Positions 2,875-27,211 of a stretch of DNA of 33,277 nucleotides are shown here, in pieces. The DNA comes from Acidimicrobiales bacterium (GTDB lineage: Bacteria > Actinomycetota > Acidimicrobiia > Acidimicrobiales > MedAcidi-G1), in NCBI GenBank assembly GCA_029242745.1, contig JAQWTI010000018.1, forward strand, positions 1 through 33,277, in the 5' to 3' direction. Made by a program: the position numbers and the translations under genes. The stretch's first letter is position 1. Each line of letters begins with the position of its first letter. The notes beneath the pieces are model-generated. The model had not been told where the DNA came from. It did not search any database and saw only the letters and a program-made list of their open reading frames with translations.

Positions 2875-3594
2875 ATGACTCGCCCACTCACCGACCACGG
2901 AGTTCTCACCTTCGACTGCTACGGCACCCTCATTGACTGGGAGTCCGGGATCTGGGATGCGTTCCAGCCTCTACTAGTGGCGAATCTGCCAACAGGCCTC
3001 ACACGAAAAAGCCTGATTGAAACCTTCAACGACTTGGAGGCTCAACAGCAGGCTGCAGCGCCCACCATGACCTATCCCACCGTCTTGGAGTGTGTGCACC
3101 GGACGTTCGCTGAGGATCTGGCGCTGAAGACGTCACCAATCCTCGACAATGATTTTGGGGCATCAGTCCCGTCTTGGCCAGCGTTTCCTGATTCGGCTGA
3201 TGCCCTCAGGTTCCTCTCACAACACTTCGGGCTTGTGATCCTCAGCAATGTCGACCGTGCGGGCTTTGCGGCCTCCAACGCCCTATTGGGCGTCGAGTTC
3301 GACGCCATCTACACAGCCGAGGACATCGGCTCGTACAAGCCCAATCTTTTCAACTTTGAATACCTGATTGAACACGTGAAGTCCGACTTGGGATACAGCA
3401 AATCAGACATCTTGCATACAGCCCAGGGCATTAGACACGACCACATCCCGGCCCGCTCAATAGGTCTCGACAACTCATGGATCGACAGAAATCGCTTATC
3501 GGAAACTGGTGCTGCCGGCCTTCCAGCAACCGACCACCTGTTCTTCTCGATGGCCGAGATGGTCGCTGCCGTGCAGGCTGAGTTGACCCCGTGA
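2875..3594 (+). CDS. HAD-superfamily hydrolase, 2-haloacid dehalogenase type II-like
   Basis: Motif I (FDCYGTLIDWE) supplies the nucleophile Asp14. Motif II is LSNVD around Ser124-Asn125, motif III is Lys155 in SYKPN, and an acidic motif IV lies near Asp189. The CYGT motif with a helical cap after it fits the haloacid dehalogenase/phosphatase subgroup. At 239 residues it is close to L-2-haloacid dehalogenases. Known members cleave carbon-halogen bonds or phosphate esters; which applies cannot be told here. It starts 85 bases after the previous gene with no clear ribosome binding site before ATG 2875, so it may have its own leader or be read from the upstream transcript. Confidence 0.85.
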   Translation: MTRPLTDHGVLTFDCYGTLIDWESGIWDAFQPLLVANLPTGLTRKSLIETFNDLEAQQQAAAPTMTYPTVLECVHRTFAEDLALKTSPILDNDFGASVPSWPAFPDSADALRFLSQHFGLVILSNVDRAGFAASNALLGVEFDAIYTAEDIGSYKPNLFNFEYLIEHVKSDLGYSKSDILHTAQGIRHDHIPARSIGLDNSWIDRNRLSETGAAGLPATDHLFFSMAEMVAAVQAELTP

Positions 3595-3740: not shown

Positions 3741-4607
3741 GTGTCGTCGGTGGCGGACTTCTATATCGACGTTGACGGCGTACAAACTCATGTAACAGAA
3801 GCGGGGACCGGGCCCACTGTCGTCTTGCTCCACGGGGCTGCCGTCGGTGTCGATTCGACGCTTACGTGGTGTCGCACGATGCGGGCACTATCGGATCAGT
3901 TTCGGCTCGTAGCGTTTGATCAGATCGGGTTCGGGCGAACAGACATGCCGAGAGACGGCATTTATAAGAACCGGTTAGAACGCACAGAGCATGTCCGATC
4001 GACACTACGCGCACTCGAAGTGACCACAGCTTGTCTTGTAGGGCACTCGGAGGGAGCGTTCATTGCTTCCCGTCTGGCGATCACAGATCCAGACCTTGTT
4101 CGATCGTTGGTGATCGTCACCTCAGGAGGAACGGCTCCGTACCTTGGTGAGCCAGAGGACAAGAAATGGATATCGGCATGCGAGAAGACCTACAACGACC
4201 CCCAGCGACTCAGCAACGAAGAGGCCTTCATCCAGTCTGACGCTCATCTGAGCCGGGGCAAAGACCCCGAGTACGAGGCGATTCTCAGGCAAAACTTTGA
4301 ACAGGCAAACAAATCTGGGCAAATTGAGATCTTTCAGAGAATGCCAGAAGCTGAAGTCGACTACCAGAAATACCGAGAACTGCAGGAAACCCATGTCCTG
4401 CCATACCTTTCAGAAATCGATATCCCGAGTCTTCTGATTTGGGCGGACAAGGACCCGACCGTTCCCGTAAGCAGGGGTCATGCCCTATGGGAGCGAATAC
4501 CAGCAGCAGAGATGCAGATCCTGAGTAACGCAGGCCACTACGTCATGCACGACCGACCAGAGAGCTTCAACGGCATTATCAGGTCATTCGCAGGTGTCCA
4601 ACCGTGA
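3741..4607 (+). CDS. Alpha/beta hydrolase, meta-cleavage-product-hydrolase-like
   Basis: Alpha/beta-fold hydrolase of 288 residues with the full triad: Ser103 in the nucleophile elbow GHSEG, Asp238 in WADKDP and His266 in NAGHYVMHD. The oxyanion HG is at 31-32 (LLHGAA). The overall pattern resembles carbon-carbon bond hydrolases of aromatic meta-cleavage pathways and related esterases, with a cap region around residues 130-220. GTG 3741 is preferred because it directly follows GGAGGAGG at 3729-3736. It is the first gene of a six-gene operon; its stop overlaps the ectoine-synthase-like gene as GTGA (4604-4607). The substrate is unknown. Confidence 0.88.
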   Translation: MSSVADFYIDVDGVQTHVTEAGTGPTVVLLHGAAVGVDSTLTWCRTMRALSDQFRLVAFDQIGFGRTDMPRDGIYKNRLERTEHVRSTLRALEVTTACLVGHSEGAFIASRLAITDPDLVRSLVIVTSGGTAPYLGEPEDKKWISACEKTYNDPQRLSNEEAFIQSDAHLSRGKDPEYEAILRQNFEQANKSGQIEIFQRMPEAEVDYQKYRELQETHVLPYLSEIDIPSLLIWADKDPTVPVSRGHALWERIPAAEMQILSNAGHYVMHDRPESFNGIIRSFAGVQP

Positions 4608-5290
4608 TAGTCCGCAGCGTTGACGAATATCAGTCCCTGGGACGAACGGTCGAACTTGCTGATGGACGAGCGACCTCAACGAGGCTCATCACGGCCCGTG
4701 ACGGCATTGGCTTTTCTCTCGCTTTCGTGACACTCGAGGCAGGGCTCACTTTTGACCTCTGGTACAAGCACCACTGGGAAACGAATGTGATACTGGGTGG
4801 CGCGGTGCTTCTCTCGGATCTCGAGAGGGGTAATTCTTGGGACCTGGACCGTGACTCCGTTTACATAGTCGGCCCCACGGACCGGCACCGTCTGAAAGCA
4901 CACACTCCGATAGAGGTTCTGAGCGTGTTCTGCCCAGCGGTCAACGGAGATGAGAATCACGATGCTGATGGCTCCTATCCGCCCACAGGGCCTATCCCAC
5001 CACGCTGCGAATCAATGGCAGTTCGAACTGGGTGCGACGCAGCGGTAACCGCCGTCGATGGTGTAGGCGTGGTGGTCACCCGAATTGAGGTGGGGGGGCA
5101 AGGAGAGTTTCCGGCTCAACAAGCCGCTTCTGCCTACTATTTTCCTGCCGGATCAGGAACCGCAGAAGATGAATTGGGTCTGCAGAACGAAGTTCGTGAC
5201 CGTTCAGTTGTTCTGGTGGAACCCGAGGAGGCAATCAGGTTTCACATGGCCTCACCGACTCCAGTTGTTGCTTTCTGGGCCGCCCAGTGA
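4604..5290 (+). CDS. Ectoine-synthase-like (EctC-type) cupin with C-terminal extension
   Basis: Residues 1 to about 130 match EctC by eye: the start MIVRS, STRLIT, DGIGFS, YKHHWE, the SVYIVGP strand and a late DENHDADGSYP. The iron ligands known from structural work on EctC (Glu57, Tyr85, His93) have counterparts at Glu59, Tyr87 and His95, all with the same offset of two, and the substrate-contacting Tyr52 falls at Tyr54. The tryptophan near the N-terminus of EctC is not evident. True EctC is about 130 residues; this has 228, and residues 135-228 look like a second, metal-ligand-poor cupin half. No ectA, ectB or ectD is nearby, so making ectoine here is unlikely. EctC closes a cyclic amidine by losing water, and the reverse ring opening would fit a catabolic operon; that is inference. 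GTG 4604 and GTG 5287 couple it to its neighbours. Confidence 0.8.
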   Translation: MIVRSVDEYQSLGRTVELADGRATSTRLITARDGIGFSLAFVTLEAGLTFDLWYKHHWETNVILGGAVLLSDLERGNSWDLDRDSVYIVGPTDRHRLKAHTPIEVLSVFCPAVNGDENHDADGSYPPTGPIPPRCESMAVRTGCDAAVTAVDGVGVVVTRIEVGGQGEFPAQQAASAYYFPAGSGTAEDELGLQNEVRDRSVVLVEPEEAIRFHMASPTPVVAFWAAQ

Positions 5291-6942
5291 GAAAAACAGA
5301 GGCCCTTCAGATGCGTTCAGCCGACGAGCTGATGGACATTGATCAACTAGCGTCCACGAAGCCGTACCGATTGAGTTTTGCCAGAACACTGATCCAACGG
5401 ATGACGACGGAAAGGTGGTTGATTGAGCCCAAGAAAATGGAACTAGACGCGAATGGCATCGGCACTGCGATCTACCAGGTCACAGCATCCGGACACCAAA
5501 TAACCTTTGTGGCCTTCTCCGACGACGTTCCGGACGAAAAACGCAGTGGCCGATTGTCTGAAACACGTTTCGACGGAATGGGGTTTCTCTGTCACGGCGA
5601 AGTTACGGAGGAGCGCCTCAACACAGAGCGTGAATCCATGAAATTGCGCTCAAGAGGTCGAACCGACTGGGAGACCATTGGGTGGACGCTCGCTACACGA
5701 AGCAAACGATCATTCGACCGAGTGGTGAACCTACTTTCCAGAGGAGCCCAACCGGACTTAGGCAGGCTCGCATCCGATGGTGGTTATCTATTCCGGAATA
5801 ATGGCTATTACGGCAATGGCCGCCATGGAACCCGCATGTGGCAATCGCTACCGGTCGACCACCCGCTCAGTCACCCCTATCACCCGGAAATGTTTGCCCT
5901 GTACCTTTGGCGCCAATTTAGTTTCGACCTGGTAGACGAAATGGCTCGACTCCGCTCTCCGAAGGCCACGTGTCTCCATGGCGACATCAAGCGAAAAATT
6001 GGAATCGGAAATTCAACAGGCCAGGGAATCTCCACGTTTCTGACCAAGTGGCCAGGGTGGATGCATGCATGGAACGTCTTGAGGGAGACAGCAATTGTTC
6101 AGTCCACAAACACATCGGCAAGTGAAACCGACATCGAGAGGGCCCGAACGCTTCTTCACCGTGCAGCCGCCTACATGGCGTACAGAGATGGAAGCAAGGA
6201 CCGCTACGGATGTCCAGACTCAGAACTAATTAGCGACCTCAACGCAATTGAAGCGAAGTTCGACGACCTCGTAGCAACCGGTCAATCCTGGAGTCGACTC
6301 GTGGTCTGGGCGCGCGCCCACTGTCACCCCGAGGCATCAGACCTTTTCAATTCCATCCTTACTGAGACGTACCCGGATCTAGTAGATGAACTCGATAGAG
6401 ACTTTGCAACACTGATGCTGCGCGCCACAGATGTGGCCCCCCATCAAACAGTTGCTGAACTTAGAAGTCTTATATCTGACAGATACGCGTGGACTCAGAA
6501 TTGGCTCTCTTCTCCGAATTTCTTCTACCGCTCCGAGGAGCATGGGGAACAACGAGTCGGAAGTCGTCAGGTGGACGATGGAGAGTCGATGGAAACCTTC
6601 ACTGCGCTCTGCAACGACGTGGCGGCACTATCAGATGACTTGGAGAGCTGCGATGCAAGCGAATCGGTGGGGTCGTTCCTGCTTCGCCATCCCGGTCATC
6701 GATTCCTGATCGAGCGAATCCAAACCTTCGGAACGGACACGTACGCGGAGATCCGCGCCAATGTCGCTGGAGATTCGTGGGTGCCGGCTAAAGCAGGAAA
6801 ATTTGTTCTGAGCAACTTCGGTATGGAGTTGTCCAGTGCGCACAACCATCGCTTTGTGCAGGGCATTTTCTATCAAGGTGCCCCTCTCCCTGAAGATTTG
6901 GCAACAGGGCGAAAGATGGATTGGATCTACCCGAATGTCTGA
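5287..6942 (+). CDS. Uncharacterised conserved-looking 551-residue protein
   Basis: I do not recognise a named domain. No signal peptide, membrane segment, Walker motif or zinc site is evident. The sequence looks like a folded soluble protein. Residues 15-110 look like a mixed alpha/beta N-terminal part. A glycine/asparagine-rich stretch with FRNNGYYGNG lies near 165-180, and HGDIKRKIGIGNSTGQG near 232-248 reads like a conserved ligand-binding or catalytic loop. A helical part follows, and FFYRSEEHGEQRVG occurs near 415. I have an uncertain memory of similar proteins next to DUF3726 genes in other bacteria, which fits the next gene. GTG 5287 overlaps the previous stop (GTGA); ATG 5311 is an in-frame alternative. 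The 3' end overlaps the next gene by eight bases. Confidence 0.8.
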   Translation: MRKTEALQMRSADELMDIDQLASTKPYRLSFARTLIQRMTTERWLIEPKKMELDANGIGTAIYQVTASGHQITFVAFSDDVPDEKRSGRLSETRFDGMGFLCHGEVTEERLNTERESMKLRSRGRTDWETIGWTLATRSKRSFDRVVNLLSRGAQPDLGRLASDGGYLFRNNGYYGNGRHGTRMWQSLPVDHPLSHPYHPEMFALYLWRQFSFDLVDEMARLRSPKATCLHGDIKRKIGIGNSTGQGISTFLTKWPGWMHAWNVLRETAIVQSTNTSASETDIERARTLLHRAAAYMAYRDGSKDRYGCPDSELISDLNAIEAKFDDLVATGQSWSRLVVWARAHCHPEASDLFNSILTETYPDLVDELDRDFATLMLRATDVAPHQTVAELRSLISDRYAWTQNWLSSPNFFYRSEEHGEQRVGSRQVDDGESMETFTALCNDVAALSDDLESCDASESVGSFLLRHPGHRFLIERIQTFGTDTYAEIRANVAGDSWVPAKAGKFVLSNFGMELSSAHNHRFVQGIFYQGAPLPEDLATGRKMDWIYPNV

Positions 6943-7585
6943 GTTGGCTTCCAAAACCTCTCGCCTCACCGAGTGGGAGGTCCGGACACACGGTGCGGGT
7001 GCACTCCGGGTAATGGGCGTCCCCTTCGGCGCGACTGACTCGGCTGCCCGTGTCCTCTGGTGGAATCAGGCGATGAACGTCCCGGCCATCGAATGGCTTA
7101 TGGCTAATGAGGAAACGGTCCGGGCCGCAGCCACTTCACCGCTCAGAATTGCTGATAGTGCAGCCCGGTCGATAACGGTGGATGCCAATGGCCAGTCGGT
7201 GCTTACCGCAGGTATAGCGGCATTCGATGTGGCATGTGCGGAAGTCCAAGTCGCAGTGCCGCTGACGGTGCACCTCGTCAACACGGTAGGTGTTGAGATG
7301 GCACATTATTTCGTGGCGCTTGGCCGCCAGCGAAAGGTCGCCGCCACAGTCCGGACTGAACAAACAGCAGTGACCTTTACTGTTGGAGGCGAAGTGGGAG
7401 CCGGGCGAACCGACACGTCCTTACTGGAAGACGCTCTTCGCCGCGGAGTAGCGGTCGAGGCACAAACTGCAATCGAGTTTCTAAACCGTGCACACCGGCT
7501 TTGGGTTCCTTCTTCGGAACGCTCCCGGGCGCAGGGTTCGTCCATTACCGACATCCCACCTGACCACCAGACGGAGCAGCGATGA
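6935..7585 (+). CDS. Small DUF3726-like protein of unknown function
   Basis: 216 residues from ATG 6935. The open frame extends further upstream, but this start gives an eight-base overlap with the previous stop and begins at the natural N-terminus. The first 40 residues (LTEWEVRTHGAGALRV followed by a helix and a WW-containing helix) resemble the opening of DUF3726 proteins, which begin with a helix-GAG-helix pattern. This is recall, not a search. The middle is rich in Ala, Thr and Val strands, and the end (after about residue 190) looks unstructured. It lies between the 551-residue protein and the formamidase-like gene with four- and eight-base overlaps, so the three are probably made in fixed ratio and may form a complex (inference). 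Confidence 0.65.
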   Translation: MSELASKTSRLTEWEVRTHGAGALRVMGVPFGATDSAARVLWWNQAMNVPAIEWLMANEETVRAAATSPLRIADSAARSITVDANGQSVLTAGIAAFDVACAEVQVAVPLTVHLVNTVGVEMAHYFVALGRQRKVAATVRTEQTAVTFTVGGEVGAGRTDTSLLEDALRRGVAVEAQTAIEFLNRAHRLWVPSSERSRAQGSSITDIPPDHQTEQR

Positions 7586-8472
7586 AGATCTATCTCGACT
7601 ATGACCAGACAGAGTTGGATGCTGAGTACGACCTTCGACCACTCGTCCCAAACCATCTTGAAATATTCACTCGTTATATAAGAGATGGTCAGTCAACAAC
7701 CAGTCGACAGGAGATGGTCCGAGACATCACCTACGGCCAAAATCCGAAACAGACCCTCGATCTTTTTCCCGCAGCCCCGAGACACGGGCTCGCCCCGGTG
7801 GTTTGCTTCATTCACGGTGGTTACTGGCGAAATAAGGACAAATCTGACTTCCACTACCTCGCTCCAGCGTTCACACGCGCGGGAGTCCATTTCGTGCTGA
7901 TCAACTACACACTCGCCCCGGAAGCCTCAATGGACCAGATCGTTCAGGAAAACCGGGAAGCCGTGGTTTGGCTTGCTGCCCACGCTGCAGAGCATGGGAT
8001 CGACCCGAAGCGAATCCACGTGACAGGCCACTCTGCAGGTGGCCATCTCGTGGCGATGCTCATGGTCACTGATTGGTCGTCGTTCGCGGGAGGACAGCTG
8101 GGAAGCGATGTGCTGGCCGGAGGAACAGCAATCAGCGGTTTATTTGATCTTGAACCGATACGACTTTGCTACCTGAACGAGAGCCTGCACCTAGATGACG
8201 AACAGGCGCTAAGGAACAGCCCTGTTGGGCTGACGCCAACGACGAAAACTCCGCTAATCCTCGCTCTCGGCGGAGACGAAACTTCTGAATACCATCGACA
8301 ACAGGAGGCCTTGTTGGGGTCGTGGAGTAAACATGATCTTCCCCTGTCGATAGTAGAGATGCCGGGCTTGAACCATTACGACGTAATCGACCACCTCGGC
8401 CACCCCGGAAGTGCGCTACACCATGCAGTGATTGATCAGGTCCGGGGGAGTAAGGACAGGAGCACATCATGA
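7582..8472 (+). CDS. Kynurenine-formamidase-like alpha/beta hydrolase
   Basis: 296 residues with the HGGYW oxyanion motif at 78-82, the family mark of arylformamidases and related hydrolases. The nucleophile Ser151 is in GHSAGG, and candidate acid and base are Asp232 (GGDE) and His265 (GLNHYD). The N-terminal part with LDYDQTELDAEYDLRP is typical of this subfamily. Known members cleave N-formylkynurenine or similar N-acyl and ester bonds. No other tryptophan-catabolism gene is present, so kynurenine itself is not implied. ATG 7582 and the stop at 8472 overlap both neighbours as ATGA, so it acts in the same pathway as the ectoine-synthase-like and aldehyde dehydrogenase genes. Confidence 0.88.
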   Translation: MKIYLDYDQTELDAEYDLRPLVPNHLEIFTRYIRDGQSTTSRQEMVRDITYGQNPKQTLDLFPAAPRHGLAPVVCFIHGGYWRNKDKSDFHYLAPAFTRAGVHFVLINYTLAPEASMDQIVQENREAVVWLAAHAAEHGIDPKRIHVTGHSAGGHLVAMLMVTDWSSFAGGQLGSDVLAGGTAISGLFDLEPIRLCYLNESLHLDDEQALRNSPVGLTPTTKTPLILALGGDETSEYHRQQEALLGSWSKHDLPLSIVEMPGLNHYDVIDHLGHPGSALHHAVIDQVRGSKDRSTS

Positions 8473-9947
8473 CACTTCAATTTCCGATGCTTGTCGACGG
8501 TGCCTGGGTTCCATCATCTGACGACCGTTGGATCAACTCCCACGAGCCCGGAACCGGAGAAGTGTGGGCGCAGATTCCCGCTGCTACAGAAGGTGACGTT
8601 GACCGGGCCGTAATGGCAGCCCACCGGGCTATGCGCTCTGGGCCGTGGTCCGAGATGACAGCGAGCGCCCGAGGTGAGGCCCTGGTCCGCCTCAGTGAGT
8701 TGGTTAGTGGGCATGCCTCGGTGCTTGCAGAAGCAGAAACGAGAGACACCGGAAAACTGATTCGAGAAACAACCGGGTCTGTTGATTACGTACCCGCGTT
8801 CTATAGGTACTACGGCGGCCTCGCCGACAAGATTCAGGGGCACACCCTCCCAAGTGATAAACCCGGGATGGAGATCTTCACTTACCGGGAGCCCGTGGGC
8901 GTCGTCGCAGCGATCGTCCCCTGGAACTCTCCGCAGATGCTCCTAGCCGTAAAATTGGCGCCCGCCCTCGCTGCAGGAAATGCAGTCGTCATTAAACCGT
9001 CGGAGCACGGATCGATCCCAATCCTCGAATTTGGAAAACTCGTTGAACAGGCGGGGATTCCCCGTGGTGTTGTCAACATCGTTACCGGACGAGGTGACCC
9101 GGTGGGTAATGTCCTCACCAGACATCGACTGGTGAGCCGCATAGCGTTCACCGGCGGACCGGATACCGCCCGAACGATCGTCCGCAACAGTGCTGAGAAC
9201 TTCGCTTCGGTAAGCTTGGAACTAGGTGGGAAATCACCACAGATTGTCTTTGCTGACGCAAACCTGGACAGTGCCCTAAACGGCATCGTGGGTGGAATCT
9301 TCGGTGCTTCAGGACAATCCTGCGTGGCCGGCTCCAGGCTCTACGTCCAACGCGAAATCTATGACGACTTCATAGCCCGCCTCATCGATCGAACGGAGCA
9401 GATCCGACTGGGCTCACCTCTAGACCCAGATTCAGAGATGGGCCCACTGGCGACACGTGAACAGTTGGGGCGATTTGATTTGTACGTCGGATCAACGCCG
9501 GCCGAGGGCGGGCGTGTTCTGACTGGCGGTGGTCGACCGGTAGAGCCTGCTATGGGGTGGTTCGTGGAACCGACAATCCTCGAGACGCACGCAAAAGGTA
9601 TTCGTGCTCAGGAGGACGAGATCTTCGGTCCTGTACTCGCTGTCACGACCTTCAACGATCAGGCCGATGCGGTTGAGAAAGCCAACGCCACTCAGTATGG
9701 CCTGGCAGCCGGTGTGTGGACATCTGCGGTGGAAAGAGCCCACCAGATGATCCGAGCGCTGTCCGCAGGAATTGTTTGGGTGAACACCTACAGGGCTACC
9801 TCTCCGGTCGCTCCCTTCGGTGGACTGCGAGATAGTGGAGGCGGTCGGGAGAGCGGCGCCGATGCGGTCTACGACTACACGTCGGTAAAGACAGCGTGGA
9901 TCAACTCGTCTGACGAAGTTGTGGCGGACCCATTTAAAGTCCAGTGA
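8469..9947 (+). CDS. NAD(P)-dependent aldehyde dehydrogenase
   Basis: Full-length ALDH (492 residues) oxidising an aldehyde to its acid. Seen are PWNSP at 151-155 with Asn153, the Rossmann part through NAVVIKPSE, the general base Glu251 in LELGGKSP, and the nucleophile Cys285 in GASGQSCVAGSR, with EEDEIFGPV-type and PFGGLRDSG motifs downstream. The closest feel is the betaine-aldehyde/gamma-aminobutyraldehyde group, but the substrate is not fixed by these motifs. It is the last of six overlapping genes (ATGA at 8469-8472), probably taking the aldehyde product of the upstream hydrolases. The gene ends 20 bases before the stop of a convergent gene, with no clear terminator. Confidence 0.95.
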   Translation: MTLQFPMLVDGAWVPSSDDRWINSHEPGTGEVWAQIPAATEGDVDRAVMAAHRAMRSGPWSEMTASARGEALVRLSELVSGHASVLAEAETRDTGKLIRETTGSVDYVPAFYRYYGGLADKIQGHTLPSDKPGMEIFTYREPVGVVAAIVPWNSPQMLLAVKLAPALAAGNAVVIKPSEHGSIPILEFGKLVEQAGIPRGVVNIVTGRGDPVGNVLTRHRLVSRIAFTGGPDTARTIVRNSAENFASVSLELGGKSPQIVFADANLDSALNGIVGGIFGASGQSCVAGSRLYVQREIYDDFIARLIDRTEQIRLGSPLDPDSEMGPLATREQLGRFDLYVGSTPAEGGRVLTGGGRPVEPAMGWFVEPTILETHAKGIRAQEDEIFGPVLAVTTFNDQADAVEKANATQYGLAAGVWTSAVERAHQMIRALSAGIVWVNTYRATSPVAPFGGLRDSGGGRESGADAVYDYTSVKTAWINSSDEVVADPFKVQ

Positions 9948-9967: not shown

Positions 9968-10333
9968 TCACTCAGACTCAGTTGTGAAAAACATCATGCC
10001 GTCTAGTGATAGCCAGCCTGGGTCGTAGTTCTTGGCAATGACCTCTCCATCAGGGCGGACAATCAAGATGGCGGGCACTGCCTCCTCGTCCTTCCCGGTG
10101 GGAGAAGAACTAGCCACTGGAACATGGGTCGCATAGAGCGGTCGGAATCCCTCAGGTAGATAACAGATGGTGGACCTTGGTAAGGCGCCATGACTTGGCT
10201 TTCCACCCGTCACCGTTCCACTGAGATACACGCGTCCTTGTTCGTCTCGTAGAAACTTGGGATAGCGGCTGATGCTCTCGAAGTGAGTCCAACTGTTTAG
10301 GAGTGGTTCAAGGCGGCGCCAACGATTGCTCAT
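9968..10333 (-). CDS. Small phage-tail-like or virion-associated domain protein
   Basis: 121 residues. The pattern is a tryptophan near the start, SWTHF, then GRVYLSGTVTGG, LPEGFRP, a run of strands, VRPDGEVIA and WLSLDGMMFF. This is the layout of the small beta-rich domain at the C-terminus of many phage tail-fibre and collagen-like surface proteins (recognition by pattern, no search). ATG 10333 has no clear ribosome binding site. It overlaps by 26 bases a longer minus-strand open frame just upstream, which lacks a start codon, so the two may be parts of one broken gene. It is the only gene here without an obvious metabolic role. Confidence 0.5.
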   Translation of the reverse strand: MSNRWRRLEPLLNSWTHFESISRYPKFLRDEQGRVYLSGTVTGGKPSHGALPRSTICYLPEGFRPLYATHVPVASSSPTGKDEEAVPAILIVRPDGEVIAKNYDPGWLSLDGMMFFTTESE

Positions 10334-10643: not shown

Positions 10644-10690
10644 TTAAGTTATAGAAAATGTGATGCCACATGACTGGTAGTGGGGTAGAG

Positions 10691-11452
10691 ATGGATTGGC
10701 AGTTGGTTCTACCTGAGTTGGAGGGTCGCACCGCGCTTGTAACCGGTGCAGCCAGTGGACTTGGATTGGCTATTGCTGAAGGATTGGCGCAGGTAGGGGC
10801 CCGAGTGGTGCTTGCAGATCTAGACGAGGAAGAACTCGAAAATGCAGTCACTACTGTTGGAGGTGATTGCCGGGGTCTCGTGTTGGACGTTGCGGATAGC
10901 GATTCCGTGTCCCAAGCAGTAGGGGAGTTGGACAGTTCCCACCCTGTTGAGGTACTGGTCAATTCTGCTGGTATCGGTGGGCGTGGTCTAGCAATCTCCT
11001 ATTCCTCAACCCTCTGGGATCAGGTCATGAGTGTGAACTTGACCGGAACATTCAATGTCTGCAGGGAGGTAGGTGCGCAGATGGTTAGCCGAAAGCGTGG
11101 GTCGATTATCAACATCGCCTCAATCGGAGGCCTTGCGGGGTATTCAGGAAGTCTCGGATACCAGGCAAGTAAGGGTGGTGTCGTACAACTCACCAGAACT
11201 CTTGCTGTGGAATGGGCGTCATCGGGAGTCCGCGTTAACGCCCTCGCTCCATCCCAGTTTGACACTCCCGTTGTGCGTAGGCAGTGGGAAGCTGAACCTG
11301 AATTGGCTGGAACATTTGCTGCACGCACCCCACTGGGACGTATTGGTGAGTGCACGGAAATAGTTGGTCCGGCGTTGTTTCTGGCGTCATCCATGTCTTC
11401 GATGGTGACTGGACACGTGTTGGCTGTTGACGGCGGATATTTGGCTCAGTGA
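10691..11452 (+). CDS. Classical short-chain dehydrogenase/reductase
   Basis: NAD(P)-dependent oxidoreductase of a hydroxyl or keto group. From ATG 10691 the cofactor motif TGAASGLG starts at residue 18, an Asp at 43 after the second strand favours NAD(H), NSAG is at 91-94, and the catalytic Ser144, Tyr157 and Lys161 (YQASK) are all present, with VDGGY near the end. ATG 10670 is an in-frame alternative without a ribosome binding site; 10691 follows GGGG at a reasonable distance. The stop lies 37 bases before the GTG of the E1 alpha gene. As it shares an operon with an acetoin/pyruvate-dehydrogenase-like E1, an acyloin or diketone reductase role is conceivable, but this is a guess. Confidence 0.92.
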   Translation: MDWQLVLPELEGRTALVTGAASGLGLAIAEGLAQVGARVVLADLDEEELENAVTTVGGDCRGLVLDVADSDSVSQAVGELDSSHPVEVLVNSAGIGGRGLAISYSSTLWDQVMSVNLTGTFNVCREVGAQMVSRKRGSIINIASIGGLAGYSGSLGYQASKGGVVQLTRTLAVEWASSGVRVNALAPSQFDTPVVRRQWEAEPELAGTFAARTPLGRIGECTEIVGPALFLASSMSSMVTGHVLAVDGGYLAQ

Positions 11453-11489
11453 CGACAACAAGCTGCGGATTGTAAGTCTGGAGGTACCG

Positions 11490-12476
11490 GTGGCCGTTGA
11501 TTTTAAAGATAGAGAAAGCAGTCTGGAGGCCTACCGGCAGCTTCTACTTATTCGTATTTTTGAGGAAACGCTCGAAGACCTTTTCGGCAAGGGAAAAATT
11601 CCCGGATTCGTTCATACCTACATCGGCCAGGAGGCCATTGCTGTAGGAGTTTGTTCAAATCTGAGGTCCGACGACTACGTCACTTCAACTCACCGAGGCC
11701 ATGGCCACGCGATCGCCAAGGGAATCGACCTGAACGGCCTTATGGCGGAGGTGTTCGGCAAGGTGACCGGGATATGCAAGGGGCGGGGTGGCTCAATGCA
11801 TGTGGCTGACTTCTCGAAAGGCATCCTGGGGGCTAACGGCATTGTGGCGGCGGGAACTGTGATCGCTGCAGGAGCCGGCCTGTCGATTCAGAGTCGAGAA
11901 CAGGATCAGGTGGTTGTCTGCTTCTTTGGTGACGGGGGCATCAACAAGGGAACCGTGCACGAAGCGATGAACTTCTGTTCAGTGAAACGACTTCCAGTGG
12001 TGTTTGTTTGTGAGAACAACCAATATGCGCAGTTCACCTCCCGCAAACTGACTACCTCTGTGAGTGACCTGTCCAAGCGAGGAGCTGCGTACGGAATGTC
12101 GACAGCGTCTTTGGACGGGAACAACGTTGTTGAGGTTGCTGAGGTATCAAAAAAAGCGATTGATGACGCCCGGAACGGCTTGGGTCCGACTTTGGTCGTG
12201 GCTGATACGTACAGGTTTGGCGGACACTACGTCGGTGATCCGCAGGCTTACCGGTCGGAAGACGAGGTAAGCAAGAGTCGCACGCGCGACCCCTTGCTTC
12301 TATTTGAGAAACACCTCGAGTCGCAGGGTTTAGTGGATCGCGATCAACTTGAATTGGAGAAAGTGGCTATTACGGAACTCGTTGATGAGGCAGTTTCCTT
12401 CGCGGAAAGAAGTGATTATCCCGAAGTTCATTCAGCAACAGATTACGTTTTTACGGATCGGATCGAGGGAAGTTAA
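11490..12476 (+). CDS. 2-oxoacid/acetoin dehydrogenase E1 component, alpha subunit
   Basis: Thiamine-diphosphate-dependent E1 alpha (328 residues). It shows IPGFVHTYIGQEA, THRGHGHAIAKG, KGRGGSMH, and the ThDP/Mg motif beginning GDG at 147 and ending in NN at 176-177 (CENNQYA). The wording is closer to acetoin dehydrogenase AcoA than to branched-chain E1, though pyruvate is also possible. The open frame begins upstream with a TTG at 11427, but GTG 11490 has GGAGGT four bases before it and gives the natural N-terminus. Its TAA shares a base with the ATG of the beta gene. The complex also needs E2 and E3, neither of which is in the window; a lone lipoyl domain is encoded convergently at 13472-13717. 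Confidence 0.93.
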   Translation: MAVDFKDRESSLEAYRQLLLIRIFEETLEDLFGKGKIPGFVHTYIGQEAIAVGVCSNLRSDDYVTSTHRGHGHAIAKGIDLNGLMAEVFGKVTGICKGRGGSMHVADFSKGILGANGIVAAGTVIAAGAGLSIQSREQDQVVVCFFGDGGINKGTVHEAMNFCSVKRLPVVFVCENNQYAQFTSRKLTTSVSDLSKRGAAYGMSTASLDGNNVVEVAEVSKKAIDDARNGLGPTLVVADTYRFGGHYVGDPQAYRSEDEVSKSRTRDPLLLFEKHLESQGLVDRDQLELEKVAITELVDEAVSFAERSDYPEVHSATDYVFTDRIEGS

Positions 12477-13453
12477 TGAGGTCGATCAGTTTCGGCCAGG
12501 CGACCGTTGAGGCAACTGCTGCCGCTATGCGCGAAGACGAGACCGTCGTTGTTACCGGTGAAGACATTGGTTGGGGCGGCAACTTTGGTCAGTTCAAAGG
12601 TTTGCTAGAGGAGTTCGGCCCAAAGAGGGTTGTGGACATGCCTATCTCTGAGGCGCTGATTCTTGGCTCAGCGGTTGGTGCTGCAGTGACGGGCCTCCGG
12701 CCAGTCGCTTCTTTGAGTTTCGTTGAGTTCACCATGGGAGCGATGGACGAGATCATTAATCAAGCGGCAAAGTTTAGGTACATGTTTGGCGGCCAGGTCA
12801 GTGTGCCGATGGTGGTGAGAGCATCTGATGGTGTCCTGCGGTCTTCCGGGGCACAGCACTCTGAGAGTTTTGAAGCGTTCTTTTCGCATATGCCTGGGCT
12901 AAAGGTGGTTGCACCGTCTAATCCGGCTGACGCCAAAGGTCTACTCAGGTCTGCCATTGATGACGATGATCCCGTTATTTACCTGGAGAATAAGAAAATC
13001 ACGTTCCGTCGGGGCCCAGTTCCCGAGGAGGACTATCGAACAGCGTTAGGCGAAGCAGCGATAGCCCGTGAAGGATCAGATGTCAGTTTGATCACTTATT
13101 CGGTGATGACTCAGCATGCGTTGGAGGCGGCGCAAGTCCTGCTCGAAGACCACTCGATAGAGGCAGAAGTTGTTGATTTGAGATCTCTTGTTCCTCTCGA
13201 CATGGAGAGTGTTCTCCGTTCAGTTGCCAAAACTCGTCGGGCAGTTGTGTGTCATGAAGCTTGGACTTTCGGTGGCTTTGGAGGCGAGATCGCAAGCCAG
13301 ATAAACGAACATCTATTTGGAGAACTGGTGGCACCGGTTCTTCGCGTGGGTGCACAGTCAGCACCTATCGCGTTTAGCCCACCGTTGGAGAGGGCGTTGG
13401 TGCCCGAAGCATCTGAAGTGGTTCAGGCGGTTCTACGTACCCTGAAACCGTAA
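12476..13453 (+). CDS. 2-oxoacid/acetoin dehydrogenase E1 component, beta subunit
   Basis: Transketolase-type pyrimidine domain (about 1-180) and C-terminal domain (about 195-320), 325 residues, the normal E1 beta size. It has VTGEDIG at 27-33, the ThDP-activating Glu59 in DMPISEA, EFTMGAMDEIINQAAK, SGAQHSESFEAFFSHMPG and DLRSLVPLD. It partners the preceding alpha gene as an alpha2beta2 E1 that decarboxylates a 2-oxoacid or cleaves acetoin and passes the acyl group to a lipoyl arm. The genes overlap by one base (TAATG). The 18 bases after its stop hold no terminator, and the lipoyl gene converges on it. Confidence 0.95.
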   Translation: MRSISFGQATVEATAAAMREDETVVVTGEDIGWGGNFGQFKGLLEEFGPKRVVDMPISEALILGSAVGAAVTGLRPVASLSFVEFTMGAMDEIINQAAKFRYMFGGQVSVPMVVRASDGVLRSSGAQHSESFEAFFSHMPGLKVVAPSNPADAKGLLRSAIDDDDPVIYLENKKITFRRGPVPEEDYRTALGEAAIAREGSDVSLITYSVMTQHALEAAQVLLEDHSIEAEVVDLRSLVPLDMESVLRSVAKTRRAVVCHEAWTFGGFGGEIASQINEHLFGELVAPVLRVGAQSAPIAFSPPLERALVPEASEVVQAVLRTLKP

Positions 13454-13471
13454 TAATTAGAGATGTGTGCC

Positions 13472-13717
13472 CTATGGGGTGTCGGAAACAATGATCCCCA
13501 GCGATTCGGTGATCTGGATAGGTTCTGAACTTGGTAAAAGCAAGATCTGCAACTGGCCACCTGCTGGTGATTCCACCTCGAGTTCTGTTTTCTCAGTCTC
13601 GATGGCGGCGAGTGCTTGGCCTTCGGTAACTGACGATCCGTCCTCCACGAGCCACTCCAGAAGAATGAACTCCTCCACAACGCCCATTTGAGGGACAACT
13701 ACAGGAACCTTTTCCAC
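13472..13717 (-). CDS. Free-standing lipoyl (biotinyl/lipoyl) carrier domain
   Basis: 81 residues forming exactly one lipoyl domain: VVVPQMGVVEE, the turn WLVEDGSSVTEGQ, and Lys43 in IETEKTELEVESPAGG as the lipoylated lysine, followed by the symmetric second half. There is no peripheral-subunit-binding domain and no E2 acyltransferase core. The start is GTG 13717, with GAAGG about eight bases upstream. It lies tail to tail with the E1 beta gene and is probably its acyl carrier. It is also in the same reading frame as the RraA-type gene upstream: only one TAG and 20 further sense codons separate them. Carrier of an E1 product is the best reading; biotin attachment is less likely given EKTE rather than MKM. 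Confidence 0.85.
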   Translation of the reverse strand: MEKVPVVVPQMGVVEEFILLEWLVEDGSSVTEGQALAAIETEKTELEVESPAGGQLQILLLPSSEPIQITESLGIIVSDTP

Positions 13718-13777
13718 ATCTAAACCTTCTTGATCGATTTCTTCTACTGCAGTTGGTTCGATTTCGCCACTAATTCG

Positions 13778-14446
13778 CTAGATGTGACCATGACGATTGA
13801 AACTTTCGAGAGGTGTCGAGCCAGTCTGCACCTCTGCACGCACGAGAGCTTCCGCCGCAATGACCTCTTCTGCCTTCTCGAGCACCTCAATGATGTGCCG
13901 TTCAGGGACCATGAGGATGCCTTCAAATTCGGCAAAAATTAGGTCTCCCGGACTCACCAGTACATTCCCGATTTCAACCGGCACCTGGTGCTCCACCATT
14001 TCCCATCTTCCGATTGCATTCATGGGACTGAGATCTCTGAAAAAGACTTGGAAGCCGATCTCTCTGAGCCCCTCTACATCCCTAAGGTTTCCGTCTAGCA
14101 CCACTCCTGCGCACCCCCGAGCTTTTGCTGCATTGCCGGTCAGTTCCCCAAAGTGGCCGACCGTTGAACCGCGGTTAACGGAAACGAGTACTGAGTCGTG
14201 TTCGAGTTCTTCAAAGACATTCAGGTACGAGGTAATTCGTTCGACTCCATCATCCCACGGAATTGTTGGTTCGATTGCCGAGCCGCGCACGGTATGGGCA
14301 ATACCAACCATTTTCTGATCTGGGAACAGGGGCCTGAGGTTGCTTGGAAGTACGGGTTCCTCTAGTCCGAGTTCGTACATTGCGTCACAAACGACGCCAA
14401 TGTAGAGACGGCGGTACCGCTCACAGATTTCCTTTATTCCAGTCAT
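13778..14446 (-). CDS. RraA-family protein (HMG/CHA aldolase-type)
   Basis: 222 residues from ATG 14446. The frame runs further upstream, but this ATG follows the stop of the M20 gene by four bases and gives the normal N-terminus. The family signature FGELTGNAAKARGCAGVVLDG leads into Arg122-Asp123 (DGNLRD), the pyruvate- and metal-binding pair of 4-hydroxy-4-methyl-2-oxoglutarate/4-carboxy-4-hydroxy-2-oxoadipate aldolases. Such enzymes split 4-hydroxy-2-oxo acids or decarboxylate oxaloacetate; RNase-E-inhibitor RraA proper is shorter and found in other phyla. It sits in a minus-strand run with an M20 hydrolase and an aminotransferase, which could feed it 2-oxo acids. Confidence 0.88.
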   Translation of the reverse strand: MTGIKEICERYRRLYIGVVCDAMYELGLEEPVLPSNLRPLFPDQKMVGIAHTVRGSAIEPTIPWDDGVERITSYLNVFEELEHDSVLVSVNRGSTVGHFGELTGNAAKARGCAGVVLDGNLRDVEGLREIGFQVFFRDLSPMNAIGRWEMVEHQVPVEIGNVLVSPGDLIFAEFEGILMVPERHIIEVLEKAEEVIAAEALVRAEVQTGSTPLESFNRHGHI

Positions 14447-14450
14447 GGAA

Positions 14451-15677
14451 CTATCCGGATTCCGTGCCCAAAAAGTGGAGAGAGGCCAAGGCGTAAATCC
14501 GCATTGATTTGGCGACGCTTGCAATCTCCAAGAACTCGTTAGGGGAGTGGGCTAGCGGAAGTAGTCCAGGACCAAATGCGGCGACGGTTGGTATACCCGC
14601 TGTTATCTGAAAGTGAGGCGCGTCGGTTGCCCCGGGAAAGGCTTCAAGTCGTGGAACTGATCCCAGAACATTCTGAGAAGCTGCGAGCAACGCTCCCACT
14701 ACGGGCTCTTCGGGTGAGATCTCAGTCGCTCCAACCCAGGTTTCAAATACAAGCTCCGCATTGAGTTCAGGATCGTCACTCATGGCAGCATCAAGGAAAG
14801 CCCGTAGATCATTTTCCATCACCTCCTGTGTCATTCCTGGGAGGGTTCGAATGTCGCAAGCGAACTCAGCAAGTCCAGGACAGATCCCGTAGAAGACGCC
14901 ACCCTGGACCATTACTCCCACATTGACAGTAGGACCCAGGGGGGAAAGTGGGTGTTCAGGATAGGTGAGTCTCTCTTTGAGCTCGTTGTCCATGCGGCTC
15001 ATTAGTCCTGCCATCTTCACGCTGGCATTTATCGCAGGTAAGCGGTCGGTGATGCTGCTGTGCATCTGTGTTCCACGGACAATTACTTTGAACAGTGCGG
15101 CACCTCGTGACACCAGATGGAGCGCCTCCCATTCTTGGTGAACTCCACTCGGCTCACCAATGATTGCTGCGTCAGCATGCAGTAAACCTTCTTCTGCCAG
15201 CCACTTGGATCCTTTTACCGAACCAGCCTCTTCGTCAGCGGTGAAAACCAGTTTCAGGGTGCCGGCCGGCAGGCCGGCTTCTTTGAGGCCAGCCGCGGCG
15301 TAGGTCATTGCCGCCACAGCGGCTTTCATGTCTCCGGAGCCCAGGCCGTAAAGTTTTCCGTCTGAGGTCACGGGGTCCCAAGGGTCGGTCTTCCAGGCGG
15401 TTAGGTCACCTGCTGGCTTGGTGTCGATGTGACCAGAAAGGATGAGGGAGGGTCCAGGCGCATCTCCGCTGACTGTGGCCAGAACGCTGGGCCTTTCTTC
15501 CTCCGGTCCAATGGCCTGGACATCGTCAATGCCCAAGGCGCGCAGCCGATCTACCACTAACTGGGCTACTGCTCGTTCGTCTCCCGGAGGGTTGGCGCTG
15601 TCAGTAGCAATCAGTTCTTTGGTGAATTCGAGTACCTCGTCCTCGTAGGAATCGAGGATCTCTGAGAGTTCCTTCAA
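14451..15677 (-). CDS. M20-family zinc hydrolase (ArgE/DapE type)
   Basis: 408 residues. The metal ligands of the family are visible: His83 in SGHIDT with Asp85, Asp116 in GSGDMK, Glu149-Glu150 in TADEE, and the late His in LAHSPNEF. A lid/dimerisation domain lies between about 185 and 300 (with HSSITDRLP). Members remove acyl groups from N-acyl amino acids or cleave small peptides. A GC-rich inverted repeat (15261-15278) lies inside the gene and is likely a codon effect. The gene lies four bases before the RraA-type gene and 44 bases after the aminotransferase, so deacylation followed by transamination is a natural reading. The exact substrate is not known. Confidence 0.92.
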   Translation of the reverse strand: MKELSEILDSYEDEVLEFTKELIATDSANPPGDERAVAQLVVDRLRALGIDDVQAIGPEEERPSVLATVSGDAPGPSLILSGHIDTKPAGDLTAWKTDPWDPVTSDGKLYGLGSGDMKAAVAAMTYAAAGLKEAGLPAGTLKLVFTADEEAGSVKGSKWLAEEGLLHADAAIIGEPSGVHQEWEALHLVSRGAALFKVIVRGTQMHSSITDRLPAINASVKMAGLMSRMDNELKERLTYPEHPLSPLGPTVNVGVMVQGGVFYGICPGLAEFACDIRTLPGMTQEVMENDLRAFLDAAMSDDPELNAELVFETWVGATEISPEEPVVGALLAASQNVLGSVPRLEAFPGATDAPHFQITAGIPTVAAFGPGLLPLAHSPNEFLEIASVAKSMRIYALASLHFLGTESG

Positions 15678-15721
15678 TGTGGCCGGTTTCCCTTCTTAAT
15701 TCTCATGGCTGTCAACTTTTG

Positions 15722-16906
15722 TTACTGAACTTCCTTGATGAACGTCGATATGGCTTCGAGGCCGCTACCTATGCTTTCGAGGTTGTTTGCTAGAGAAATT
15801 CTGACGACCTCACTGCCACCGGGTCCAAACACTTCACCCGGAGCGACAGCCACTCCGTGCTCTGCGAGTAAGCGGAGGGAGAAATCAAGCGGGGCCAGAC
15901 CAGAAGTAGATATATCGATAAGCATGTAGAAGGTTCCCTGCGTGCGAAAACCGTCTAAACCAAGATCTAGCATTCGACTCCAAGCAAAGTCACGGTTTTG
16001 CACATATGCCAACCGCATTGCCTCGATAGGTTCACGCGGCCCGGTTAGTGCCGCTTCAGCTGCTTTCTGAGAGATGGTGCTGGGGCAGGAAACCTGCGGT
16101 TCTTGGAGTGTTCTCAAGATCTGAGCCAAAGCCGGTGGTGCTGCCAAGTAGCCAACCCTCCAGCCGGTCATCGCGTAGACCTTCGAAAAGCTATAGACAG
16201 AGATGACTGGCGTGGAAGTGTCGATGGAACCTGGAGACAGGTAGGGAAGTCCATCATCGAGAATCAACTGGTCGTAAACCTCATCACTGATGACCCAGAT
16301 GCCGCGCTCGGATGTAGCGGAGAGAATGGATTCGATTCGTTCCGGGGGAATCACCGCCCCGGTTGGGTTATTCGGTGTGTTGAGAAACATGGCTTTTGTC
16401 TGCGGCGTTACCAGTGAAGCGATTCTGTCTGGATCTGGAAGGTAGCCATCGTTCTTCTCCAACTCGTAGAAGACAGGACGCCCCCCGAGTAAGCGGACGG
16501 TTTCGTCCATGTTGGGGAATCCAGGTGTTGGTAGCAGCACTTCGTCCCCCGGATTGAGGAGCGCCGCGTAGATGGAATAAAGCCCGTTCATTGCCCCAGG
16601 GGTAACTACGACTTGTTCCAACGAGGCTTTGAACCCGTTTATGGTCTGGATTTTATCGACGAGCAGTTCGCGCAACGTGGTGAGGCCACCGTTTGGGCCA
16701 TAACGGGTATAGCCAGCCGCCGCAGCATCGCTGGCTGCTTCGATTATGTGCTGAGGGGTAGTGAAAGAAGGTTCACCAACTTCGAGTCGCACCGCATCAG
16801 GATTTTGGTCAGCCGCATCAAAGAGAACCCGAATAGTTGAACGCCGAAGATCTTGAGCACGATGCGAAAAGTCGAGGGCCACTTTGGAATCAATGCCCTG
16901 GCTCAC
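15722..16906 (-). CDS. PLP-dependent class I/II aminotransferase (copy 1)
   Basis: Fold-type I aminotransferase, 394 residues. Seen are LEVGEP near 41-46, the PLP contacts around 104-109 (PGAMNG), NTPNNPTGAV with Asn180, SDEVYD with Asp208, the Schiff-base Lys242 in YSFSKVYAMTGWRVGY, and an Arg in the C-terminal VRISLANN for the substrate carboxylate. It would interconvert an amino acid and a 2-oxo acid. The start is GTG 16906, with GAGGAA about eight bases before it. It is clearly paralogous to the aminotransferase at 31656-32801, sharing long stretches such as MTGWRVGY and QEP-VSC. It leads the M20-RraA-lipoyl run on this strand. Confidence 0.93.
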   Translation of the reverse strand: MSQGIDSKVALDFSHRAQDLRRSTIRVLFDAADQNPDAVRLEVGEPSFTTPQHIIEAASDAAAAGYTRYGPNGGLTTLRELLVDKIQTINGFKASLEQVVVTPGAMNGLYSIYAALLNPGDEVLLPTPGFPNMDETVRLLGGRPVFYELEKNDGYLPDPDRIASLVTPQTKAMFLNTPNNPTGAVIPPERIESILSATSERGIWVISDEVYDQLILDDGLPYLSPGSIDTSTPVISVYSFSKVYAMTGWRVGYLAAPPALAQILRTLQEPQVSCPSTISQKAAEAALTGPREPIEAMRLAYVQNRDFAWSRMLDLGLDGFRTQGTFYMLIDISTSGLAPLDFSLRLLAEHGVAVAPGEVFGPGGSEVVRISLANNLESIGSGLEAISTFIKEVQ

Positions 16907-21445: not shown

Positions 21446-21865
21446 GTGCGCGCCAGGAAGGGGCTTGACTCTGAACGCAGACGGTTTCTGACAGGGGGGT
21501 TTCTGACAGACCGCCTAGAGCCGGCTGTTCAAAGTCTTGATTCTGGTGTTTCTATCTTGGAGTGTGTGGAGCGGGAGGCCGGGGATGATGGTGTTTTGTG
21601 GATCGACTACGCATTGGTGAACAGAGGCTCGGAAAGGACGAATGTCTTTGTGTATTTGCGCAAGGAGATTCCGAAGCGATCCGTGAAAGTTCTGCGCCTT
21701 GACCCAGAAGAGGTTTTTCGAGGTTCGTCTAGGGAGTTAGGTAAAAGACCGGCTGAAGAGATGTTCCTCGAGGTGGAGGCTGGATCTGGTATAGACAGCC
21801 AAACAGAAGTCTTCAAGGTCGGTAAGGCAAATTCGGCGGCCAAAGCAACAGAGGAGGAGATGTGA
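21446..21865 (+). CDS. Hypothetical 139-residue protein coupled to the CocE-type hydrolase
   Basis: I do not recognise the family. The protein is charged and soluble-looking. A strand-rich middle (LWIDYALVNRGSERTNVFVY near 50-69) resembles a small immunoglobulin-like or jelly-roll fold, and an acidic, Ala/Lys-rich tail follows. There is no signal peptide or cysteine pattern. The start is GTG 21446 with no good ribosome binding site, which is a weakness. In favour of a real gene, its stop overlaps the GTG of the hydrolase (GTGA, 21862-21865), and the hydrolase's strong ribosome binding site GAGGAGGAG lies within its last codons. Confidence 0.5.
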   Translation: MRARKGLDSERRRFLTGGFLTDRLEPAVQSLDSGVSILECVEREAGDDGVLWIDYALVNRGSERTNVFVYLRKEIPKRSVKVLRLDPEEVFRGSSRELGKRPAEEMFLEVEAGSGIDSQTEVFKVGKANSAAKATEEEM

Positions 21866-23583: not shown

Positions 23584-23631
23584 GGGTTGTTCAAGGAGTG
23601 GATCTGGGCGCTGAGGAGACGACAAGCTCAG

Positions 23632-24309: not shown

Positions 24310-24342
24310 TTTTACCTAGCCCGACATTGGTGGGAGGGGTTT

Positions 24343-24354
24343 GTTGCTACCAAC
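24343..24354. promoter_or_regulatory. Candidate operator between the GntR regulator and the Ntn hydrolase
   Basis: GTTG-N4-CAAC is a perfect small dyad in the middle of the 71-base divergent gap. A wider TTGGT-N17-ACCAA dyad (24327-24353) overlaps it. Divergent placement next to a FadR-type gene makes it a reasonable operator, but the arms are short. Confidence 0.3.
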
Positions 24355-24380
24355 GGACAATCATCCTACTCTCAGGTGCC

Positions 24381-25331: not shown

Positions 25332-25347
25332 GCAGTCAGGTGACTGC
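25332..25347 (+). promoter_or_regulatory. 16-bp palindrome in the leader of the binding-protein gene
   Basis: GCAGTCA-GG-TGACTGC is a perfect inverted repeat with seven-base arms, directly after an AT-rich stretch (25300-25330) with -10-like TATGAT (25319) and TATAAC (25324). That is where an operator would block a starting polymerase. Two imperfect direct repeats, GCCGGTGGTT and GCCGGTTGTT (25347-25368), follow. No matching -35 was found. Confidence 0.45.
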
Positions 25348-25383
25348 CGGTGGTTATCGCCGGTTGTTGCTCAACACAGTCTT

Positions 25384-25402: not shown

Positions 25403-25423
25403 GCTATACGTATAGGGGGACAG

Positions 25424-27178: not shown

Positions 27179-27211
27179 ACCTTCCCAGAGGTCGTTTCGA
27201 CTGCTACCAGG

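Follow-up and report, generated by a model that had tools for sequence, protein, structure and literature searches.

A six-gene operon occupies positions 3741-9947 on the + strand of contig JAQWTI010000018.1 from an Acidimicrobiales bacterium (GenBank assembly GCA_029242745.1; GTDB MedAcidi-G1; genome of 2.44 Mb, 94.7% complete). The stretch analysed, hereafter the window, comprises positions 1 to 33,277 of that contig. Two of the six genes encode a pair of proteins that recurs across distant taxa: U551, the name given here to a family of uncharacterised proteins of about 550 amino acids (551 aa in the window), and D3726, its regular partner, a small protein derived from the Ldh_2 dehydrogenase family. 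Loci carrying this pair fall into classes; class I is probably the homarine operon of roseobacters, and the window belongs to a second group, class II. We read the operon, with a probability of roughly 0.52, as a class II catabolic module of the U551-DUF3726 system, which would open an N-heterocyclic, betaine-like ring other than homarine.

The six successive open reading frames (ORFs) encode ABH1 (3741-4607), an alpha/beta hydrolase nearest to meta-cleavage-product (MCP) hydrolases (88.8 bits against the curated equivalog model of HsaD, whose cut-off is 400) and carrying a GHSEG nucleophile motif; an EctC-derived bicupin (4604-5290); U551 (5287-6942); D3726 (6935-7585); ABH2 (7582-8472), a lipase/kynurenine-formamidase-like alpha/beta hydrolase; and an aldehyde dehydrogenase (ALDH, 8469-9947) resembling betaine-aldehyde and phenylacetaldehyde dehydrogenases, below the cut-offs of those models, with GQSC and ELGGK motifs. 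For the fourth ORF an earlier in-frame GTG exists at 6836; 6935 is an ATG. The junctions overlap by 4, 4, 8, 4 and 4 bases (GTGA, GTGA, ATGTCTGA, ATGA and ATGA, in order), so that the six overlapping genes reported by the first-pass annotation are borne out. A strong ribosome-binding-like stretch, GGAGGAGG, lies directly upstream of the GTG start of ABH1. On visual inspection no obvious stretch of this kind precedes the EctC-like and U551 genes, which would fit translational coupling. A sigma-70 scan returned 0 promoter-like sites versus 3.0 expected, and a terminator scan three sites versus 5.8 expected, that is, no excess. The view of these genes as a single operon of catabolic character, with parts suiting an N-acyl-bond step and an aldehyde step, is likewise supported.

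All six genes were found in the same order in the congener 'Candidatus Microthrix sp. UBA2974' (locus L020), with proteins 64-83% identical; this genome was the sole relative returned by a scan of named genomes and is counted once. In the NCBI taxonomy a relative of Microthrix is placed in Actinomycetota, Acidimicrobiales. Four of its five junctions have a start codon that reproduces the overlap length of the window (4, 8, 4 and 4 bases); at the EctC/U551 junction only TTG codons were found, for an overlap of 17 or 44 bases. Since it is conserved in UBA2974, the arrangement is not due to chance. Relatives of ABH1 at E≤1e-40 occur in two of the 48 genomes of the family, and the six-gene set is, as far as seen, an accessory island of one genus. 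As to whether all six genes co-occur in the same order in distant taxa, the exact order was found in one congener only, but the U551/D3726 pair is widespread.

This pair was found in Archaea, in Alpha-, Beta- and Gammaproteobacteria and in the window's own phylum, carriers of U551 including Natrinema (Archaea), Pseudomonas, Variovorax, Sinorhizobium and roseobacters. U551 matches were detected in 168 of 72,556 plasmid records, in five of 296 genomes of the phylum by a single-protein search and in 49 of 397 genomes of the order by a profile search, the own genome being included in both genome counts; four scans of viral contigs yielded no further usable relatives. As previously described from its letters, the 551-aa window protein is an unknown: neither Pfam (E≤1) nor NCBIfam (E≤0.01) gave a match. 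Seven members of the family gave only single chance-level matches against Pfam (best E 0.083), as did a profile search of the PDB (best E 0.69). Across 60 U551 sequences, the columns with a conservation of 93% or more comprise 15 Arg, 11 Gly, 6 Glu and 2 Asp, with no His and no Cys; His comes closest in a column at 92%, where the window has Trp. Judging from these columns, no usual metal or Fe-S site is evident family-wide, and the class I His or carboxylates may be ligands. Long frames in two loci (L004 and L005) were considered as U551 fusions and rejected, the extra stretch being low-complexity and rich in Arg, Ala and Gly; L075 holds a similar long frame.

The gene company of U551 was compared in 59 loci longer than 6,500 bases, with L013 and L128-L130 dropped as duplicates or neighbours and with L087, L088, L102 and L103, in which U551 was recovered, included; several come from the same species or genus, so these are not 59 independent events. 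A D3726-type ORF lies downstream of U551 on the same strand in 58 of the 59, as detected by a profile iterated on the same ORFs, which makes the count partly circular (weakest match 22 bits, in L102). The sole locus without it (L094) runs into a contig end. The two proteins that the first-pass annotation had set apart as uncharacterised do, then, form a widespread core. A dipeptidase gene lies near U551 in 53 of the 59 loci.

The label 'DUF3726-like' applies to the roseobacter counterparts of the window protein rather than to the protein itself: PF12525 (DUF3726) is matched by three alphaproteobacterial counterparts (L010, L016 and L019, from roseobacters and Aminobacter), but not by window D3726 at E≤1 (best Pfam E 0.059). 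A D3726 profile search of the PDB gave chance-level matches only (best E 0.43). The counterparts in Natrinema and in genome G087 showed partial matches to Ldh_2 (PF02615; 5e-9 and 8e-8, just under the curated cut-off), and in a single hhalign comparison with the operon Ldh proteins the N-terminal parts were collinear (E=1.5e-4, probability 51%). D3726 is read as a shortened relative of the Ldh_2 (malate/L-lactate dehydrogenase) family, aligning with its N-terminal part and having presumably lost most of the dehydrogenase; the class I operons, by contrast, have a complete Ldh as a separate gene. A text search for DUF3726 in the accessible literature found no paper, and further literature searches listed nothing on these genes.

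Class I shows the order LysR | ALDH, dipeptidase, U551, DUF3726, Ldh in Aliiroseovarius, Phaeobacter (M646 and P. porticola), TM1040 and Aminobacter sp. MDW-2. A BCCT or glycine-betaine transporter accompanies the set (BCCT in the four roseobacter loci), and the four roseobacter loci adjoin soxBDAG-like genes resembling N-methylglutamate dehydrogenase (Mgd); no sox-like neighbours occur in the stretches seen of Aminobacter or P. inhibens DSM 17395. A 2026 study of homarine catabolism by Ferrer-Gonzalez et al. (Nat Microbiol 11:1531) is cited in PMC13390433; the operon is reportedly homABCDER, with N-methylglutamate as its product. Because its five structural genes and regulator match this synteny, class I is probably the pathway from homarine (N-methylpicolinate) to N-methylglutamate.

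The sox-like genes point the same way. Their beta subunits in Aliiroseovarius and P. inhibens M646 are 73-74% identical to a Rhizobium leguminosarum copy beside glnT and three glutamate-synthase-like genes, which we take to be the gmaS-mgsABC-mgdABCD arrangement, versus 54-55% to a copy located close to a gene for serine hydroxymethyltransferase; for the alpha subunits (with part of the TM1040 one) the values are 54-55% versus 40-44%. These identities favour, though they do not prove, N-methylglutamate dehydrogenase over sarcosine oxidase. According to a 2026 paper (PMC13390433), which cites a report to this effect and was the only paper that searches on homarine catabolism yielded, Mgd participates in homarine catabolism. 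Models of 2,5-dioxovalerate/alpha-ketoglutarate semialdehyde dehydrogenase come closest to the TM1040 ALDH, which scores below their cut-offs. We take the imine reductase DpkA to be an Ldh_2 family enzyme. Titles and abstracts describe its use for making N-methyl amino acids.

Should class I be the homarine operon, its later steps would fall to the ALDH, dipeptidase and Ldh, leaving the ring to the U551-DUF3726 pair. By this elimination, U551 and its Ldh_2-derived partner would carry out the ring-attacking step, the ALDH would oxidise the resulting semialdehyde, the dipeptidase would remove the N-acyl (formyl) group and the Ldh would reduce the imine. The pathway of the window, earlier proposed as undescribed, would accordingly be so in part: its core pair is probably part of a pathway already described, that for homarine, but the operon is of a different class. 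With the homarine operon, if class I is that operon, the window shares the U551/DUF3726 pair, an ALDH and an N-acyl hydrolase step; it differs in lacking the dipeptidase, Ldh and LysR, in adding the bicupin and two alpha/beta hydrolases, and in its type of ALDH. Indeed, a Pfam scan of 30 window proteins found no dipeptidase, no Ldh_2 and no LysR, and no dipeptidase lies near the pair in UBA2974 either.

The separation of class II is seen in the U551 tree of 60 proteins (L051 and L052 dropped as duplicates here and in the residue counts), where the window and UBA2974 group with Mesorhizobium/Bosea (support 100/99), then with Natrinema (99/93), and outside the roseobacter group. In reduced trees of chosen subsets, taking out Mesorhizobium/Bosea left the window with Natrinema (22 rows; 97/95), and taking out Natrinema left it with Mesorhizobium/Bosea (23 rows; 100/99). 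Window U551 is 31-32% identical to the roseobacter copies. Eight residues are common to the window-type and Mesorhizobium/Bosea proteins and rare elsewhere, among them Trp255, where the others have His in 55 of 56 sequences, the roseobacter copies included. Four of the six loci without a dipeptidase (L007, L011, L012 and L020) are the Natrinema, Mesorhizobium/Bosea and UBA2974 loci themselves; in the remaining two, L104 and L127, the sequence stops at a contig end, for L104 on the upstream side.

The class II loci of Mesorhizobium ciceri (pMc1284/pMc1192) and Bosea sp. NBC_00550 share with the window the U551 clade and residues, D3726, a similar ALDH and an Opp-type ABC transporter, in the window a possible uptake system (25340-30104, +) about 15 kb downstream of the operon. 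They differ in having an 'amino acid synthesis' protein, an aldo/keto reductase and another alpha/beta hydrolase (PcaD-like in Mesorhizobium). A relative of ABH1 is also present in Mesorhizobium: ABH1 is 44% identical to a hydrolase encoded about 8 kb from class II U551 in M. ciceri, and at E≤1e-50 its relatives were found in two of the 72,556 plasmids, both of M. ciceri and both at this distance. Among 16 chosen loci, the window ALDH is 41-46% identical to the ALDHs of the Mesorhizobium, Bosea and Natrinema loci and 31-35% to the ALDH nearest U551 in the remaining ones, the exception being a class I-type locus (L092) with a nearby ALDH 52% identical to that of the window. Literature searches met no study of the M. 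ciceri or Bosea class II loci. The Sinorhizobium meliloti pSymB locus (L017), considered as a trigonelline/stachydrine locus, was set aside, since the accessible part of PMC12239276 mentions only stcD and nothing on the locus.

On the class II reading, the U551/D3726 pair of the window would open the ring of an imported N-heterocyclic carboxylate, probably methylated or betaine-like, releasing an N-acyl enamine and an aldehyde. The ALDH would oxidise the aldehyde, ABH2 would cleave the N-acyl bond in place of the dipeptidase, and ABH1 and the bicupin might perform product-specific hydrolysis of the remaining C-C, ester, lactone or amide bonds. ABH2 contains HGGYW and GHSAGG motifs. Its earlier description as formamidase-like was only partly upheld: kynurenine formamidase is matched in the PDB (1.4e-14), but a lipase (6e-39) and two esterases match better. 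On four other plasmids relatives of ABH2 adjoin varied genes (RidA, PNPOx-type, flavin-reductase, FAH and tryptophan-degradation genes), neighbours that suit work on nitrogen rings but name no substrate.

As to the substrate, a trigonelline-like pyridinium betaine is our guess. Such betaines are plant and algal products, and they become candidates because the Mesorhizobium class II genes sit on plasmids of legume symbionts. In trigonelline degradation (TgnABCD) the ring is opened to an N-formyl product, and this step, an ALDH and a hydrolase would correspond to the components of the window operon, but the six genes include no flavin monooxygenase pair. It is conceivable, though we think it doubtful, that U551 and its shrunken Ldh_2 partner are a kind of enzyme not described before, one that opens N-heterocycles of the pyridinium type with no recognised cofactor site and has diversified to serve several classes of substrate, the window class acting on a non-homarine compound with an EctC-derived bicupin recruited as ring or amide hydrolase. 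Widely distributed as the pair is, no model for U551 was found in Pfam or NCBIfam. If class I is the homarine operon, the eight-residue difference between the classes and the swapped helper enzymes provide a way to ask what fixes substrate choice, and the window points to a further substrate that could be sought.

Several observations weigh against the class II reading. Only two genomes are known to have the six-gene order, and they do not share the same upstream genes. No counterpart of the cupin or of ABH2 was found in the Mesorhizobium and Bosea loci, and the co-occurrence of ABH1 with class II U551 rests on one species. The class II branches are long, the tree program having warned of long-branch joining, and Natrinema has His at position 255, unlike Mesorhizobium/Bosea. 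An AlphaFold2 (AF2) model of U551, built from the window and L020 sequences, reached a mean confidence score (pLDDT) of 41 and was not used. The homarine identity of class I is itself drawn from synteny together with the reported make-up of the hom operon. Nor does the five-gene set occur everywhere: an ALDH lies within 9 kb of U551 in only 20 of the 59 loci and a full-length Ldh is present in 22. In the stretch seen, the P. inhibens DSM 17395 copy lacks both an Ldh and sox-like neighbours. The Mgd assignment rests on one reference neighbourhood; a Paracoccus aminophilus sox-like copy is closer still (80-81%) and adjoins folD and purU; neither glnT nor mgs-like genes appear in the region seen. 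Finally, the Rieske, ALDH and FAD oxidoreductase genes near the Phaeobacter loci would equally suit the oxidation of glycine betaine and sarcosine.

Some of the same genes could be explained by catabolism of carbocyclic aromatics or esters, in which ABH1 would be a true meta-cleavage hydrolase, U551 an aromatic-ring or CoA-type enzyme, and nitrogen irrelevant. The proximity of ABH1 to MCP hydrolases, the likeness of the ALDH to phenylacetaldehyde and HpaE dehydrogenases, and the Rieske, FAH and E1 genes nearby would all fit. Nevertheless, no extradiol dioxygenase appears in the Pfam matches of the 30 window proteins. Moreover, RidA and ABH2 suit nitrogen chemistry, and related loci carry BCCT/glycine-betaine transporters (Natrinema, Pseudomonas, roseobacters and Aminobacter), others having Liv, Pot or Opp types. 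We regard this explanation as unlikely.

Degradation of homarine itself by the window operon, with the hydrolases replacing the dipeptidase and an Ldh supplied from elsewhere, appears quite improbable. It would account for the U551-D3726 pair and the ALDH being in common with class I. The window genome, however, has a second, class I-type U551 locus (L081; G000:C4:58000-74000) with a dipeptidase, D3726, a convergent Ldh and a Rieske gene, although no ALDH was seen near it; the window copy is thus not simply the homarine operon of this genome. Window U551 is just 28% identical to that class I-type copy, its ALDH is of another type, and Ldh_2 is missing from the scanned window proteins.

The third possibility, an ectoine-related operon, in which the cupin would be an ectoine synthase or an ectoine-hydrolysing enzyme feeding the hydrolases and the ALDH, turns on the second gene. 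The description of its product as an EctC-like cupin stands in so far as it passes the Pfam Ectoine_synth model (PF06339; 5e-29, 101.6 bits against a cut-off of 27), but it falls below the cut-off of the NCBIfam ectoine synthase model (108.6 versus 128 bits) and has 228 aa, with an N-terminal EctC-like cupin (residues ~1-127) and a second cupin half (~138-227), whereas ectoine synthase is a single cupin of about 130 aa. An AF2 model of the protein, built from two sequences (pLDDT 62), shows the two halves, and its best Foldseek matches are bicupins such as DR1152, BacB and YlbA, with TM-scores of ~0.6. The residue roles used here were taken from the accessible part of PMC6344544. The metal ligands are present, E59, Y87 and H95 corresponding to Glu-57, Tyr-84 and His-92 (Paenibacillus lautus numbering), and in the alignment counterparts of EctC Tyr-52, Arg-25, Ser-23 and Phe-106 are also kept. 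However, Thr-40 is replaced by V42 and the conserved Cys (104/105) by S107, positions at which all 28 other EctC rows of the order have Thr and Cys, respectively. No Trp occurs at cupin residues 11-45, where the counterpart of Trp-21 would lie; as Trp is found at residues 15-30 in 20 of the 28 other EctC proteins of the order and is not universal, its loss alone is weak evidence. Asn-38 was dropped as evidence, not being Asn in the other EctC rows inspected either.

The cupin is also rare. Any EctC match was found in 37 of the 397 genomes of the order, and a full-length 228-aa cupin in two of them (two of 17 of the genus); none of the 102 plasmid records with an EctC match covers 80% of it, and among the 59 U551 loci its model matches that of the congener UBA2974 only. 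With ectoine synthase residues changed in a protein so restricted, the operon is hardly 'built around' the cupin, as had been proposed. The window genome contains no other EctC and, at 94.7% completeness, no EctA match, although the EctA model gave a signal in seven of 14 control genomes and exceeded its cut-off in none. Precedents for the ectoine-related alternative can be found in the accessible parts of two papers, according to which EctC of Halomonas elongata can hydrolyse synthetic ectoine derivatives (PMC6344544) and solitary EctC proteins of unresolved role are known (PMC5924519). With EctC and solitary EctC the window protein shares the cupin fold and the three metal ligands; it differs as a 228-aa bicupin without Thr-40, Cys or Trp-21 and in the absence of a detected EctA. 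On these tests the cupin is EctC-derived but not an ectoine synthase, and an ectoine-related role for the operon seems very improbable. An EctC-derived enzyme that has probably departed from ectoine chemistry cautions against labelling such cupins ectoine synthase.

A biosynthetic cluster for a small modified metabolite, suggested by the fold resemblance of the bicupin to BacB, can be given hardly any weight, as hydrolases, ALDH, E1 dehydrogenase and an uptake-type transporter predominate and the Pfam matches of the 30 window proteins include no synthetase, carrier protein or ligase.

Upstream of the operon, on the + strand, lie genes for a GbcA-like Rieske oxygenase (152-1342), RidA (1339-1731), a PTE-like hydrolase (1728-2789) and a HAD type II protein (2875-3594). 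These genes possibly belong to the same pathway; their membership is uncertain because UBA2974 has other genes there, encoding EamA, GCV_T and VanA-type oxygenase proteins. In that genome two adjacent frames (L020:5665-7661) both match VanA-type oxygenase C-termini, the first without a Rieske domain match. Downstream, a catabolic block identified by Pfam (10670-16906) encodes an SDR, E1 alpha, E1 beta, an RraA-like protein, an M20 peptidase and an aminotransferase; it is 75-88% identical and in the same order in UBA2974, where the aminotransferase is cut by the locus end. Further catabolic genes at 21862-25214 and 31656-32801 encode an S15-type hydrolase, a GntR regulator, an AAT-like protein and a second aminotransferase.

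Other U551 loci yielded two side observations. In 19 acidimicrobial loci (L109-L127) U551 is 46-60% identical to its best reference in all 19, and the dipeptidase is 70-78% identical to a proteobacterial one in 15 of them, values that suggest transfer between phyla. A protein of the 'amino acid synthesis family', presumably Pfam PF06684, or its BLAST relative recurs near U551 loci of different classes (L011, L012, L137, L092, L093 and L108); its PDB relatives are uncharacterised. Just beyond the operon, a 121-aa ORF on the - strand of the window (9968-10333) is 88% identical in UBA2974, above the values for all six operon genes.

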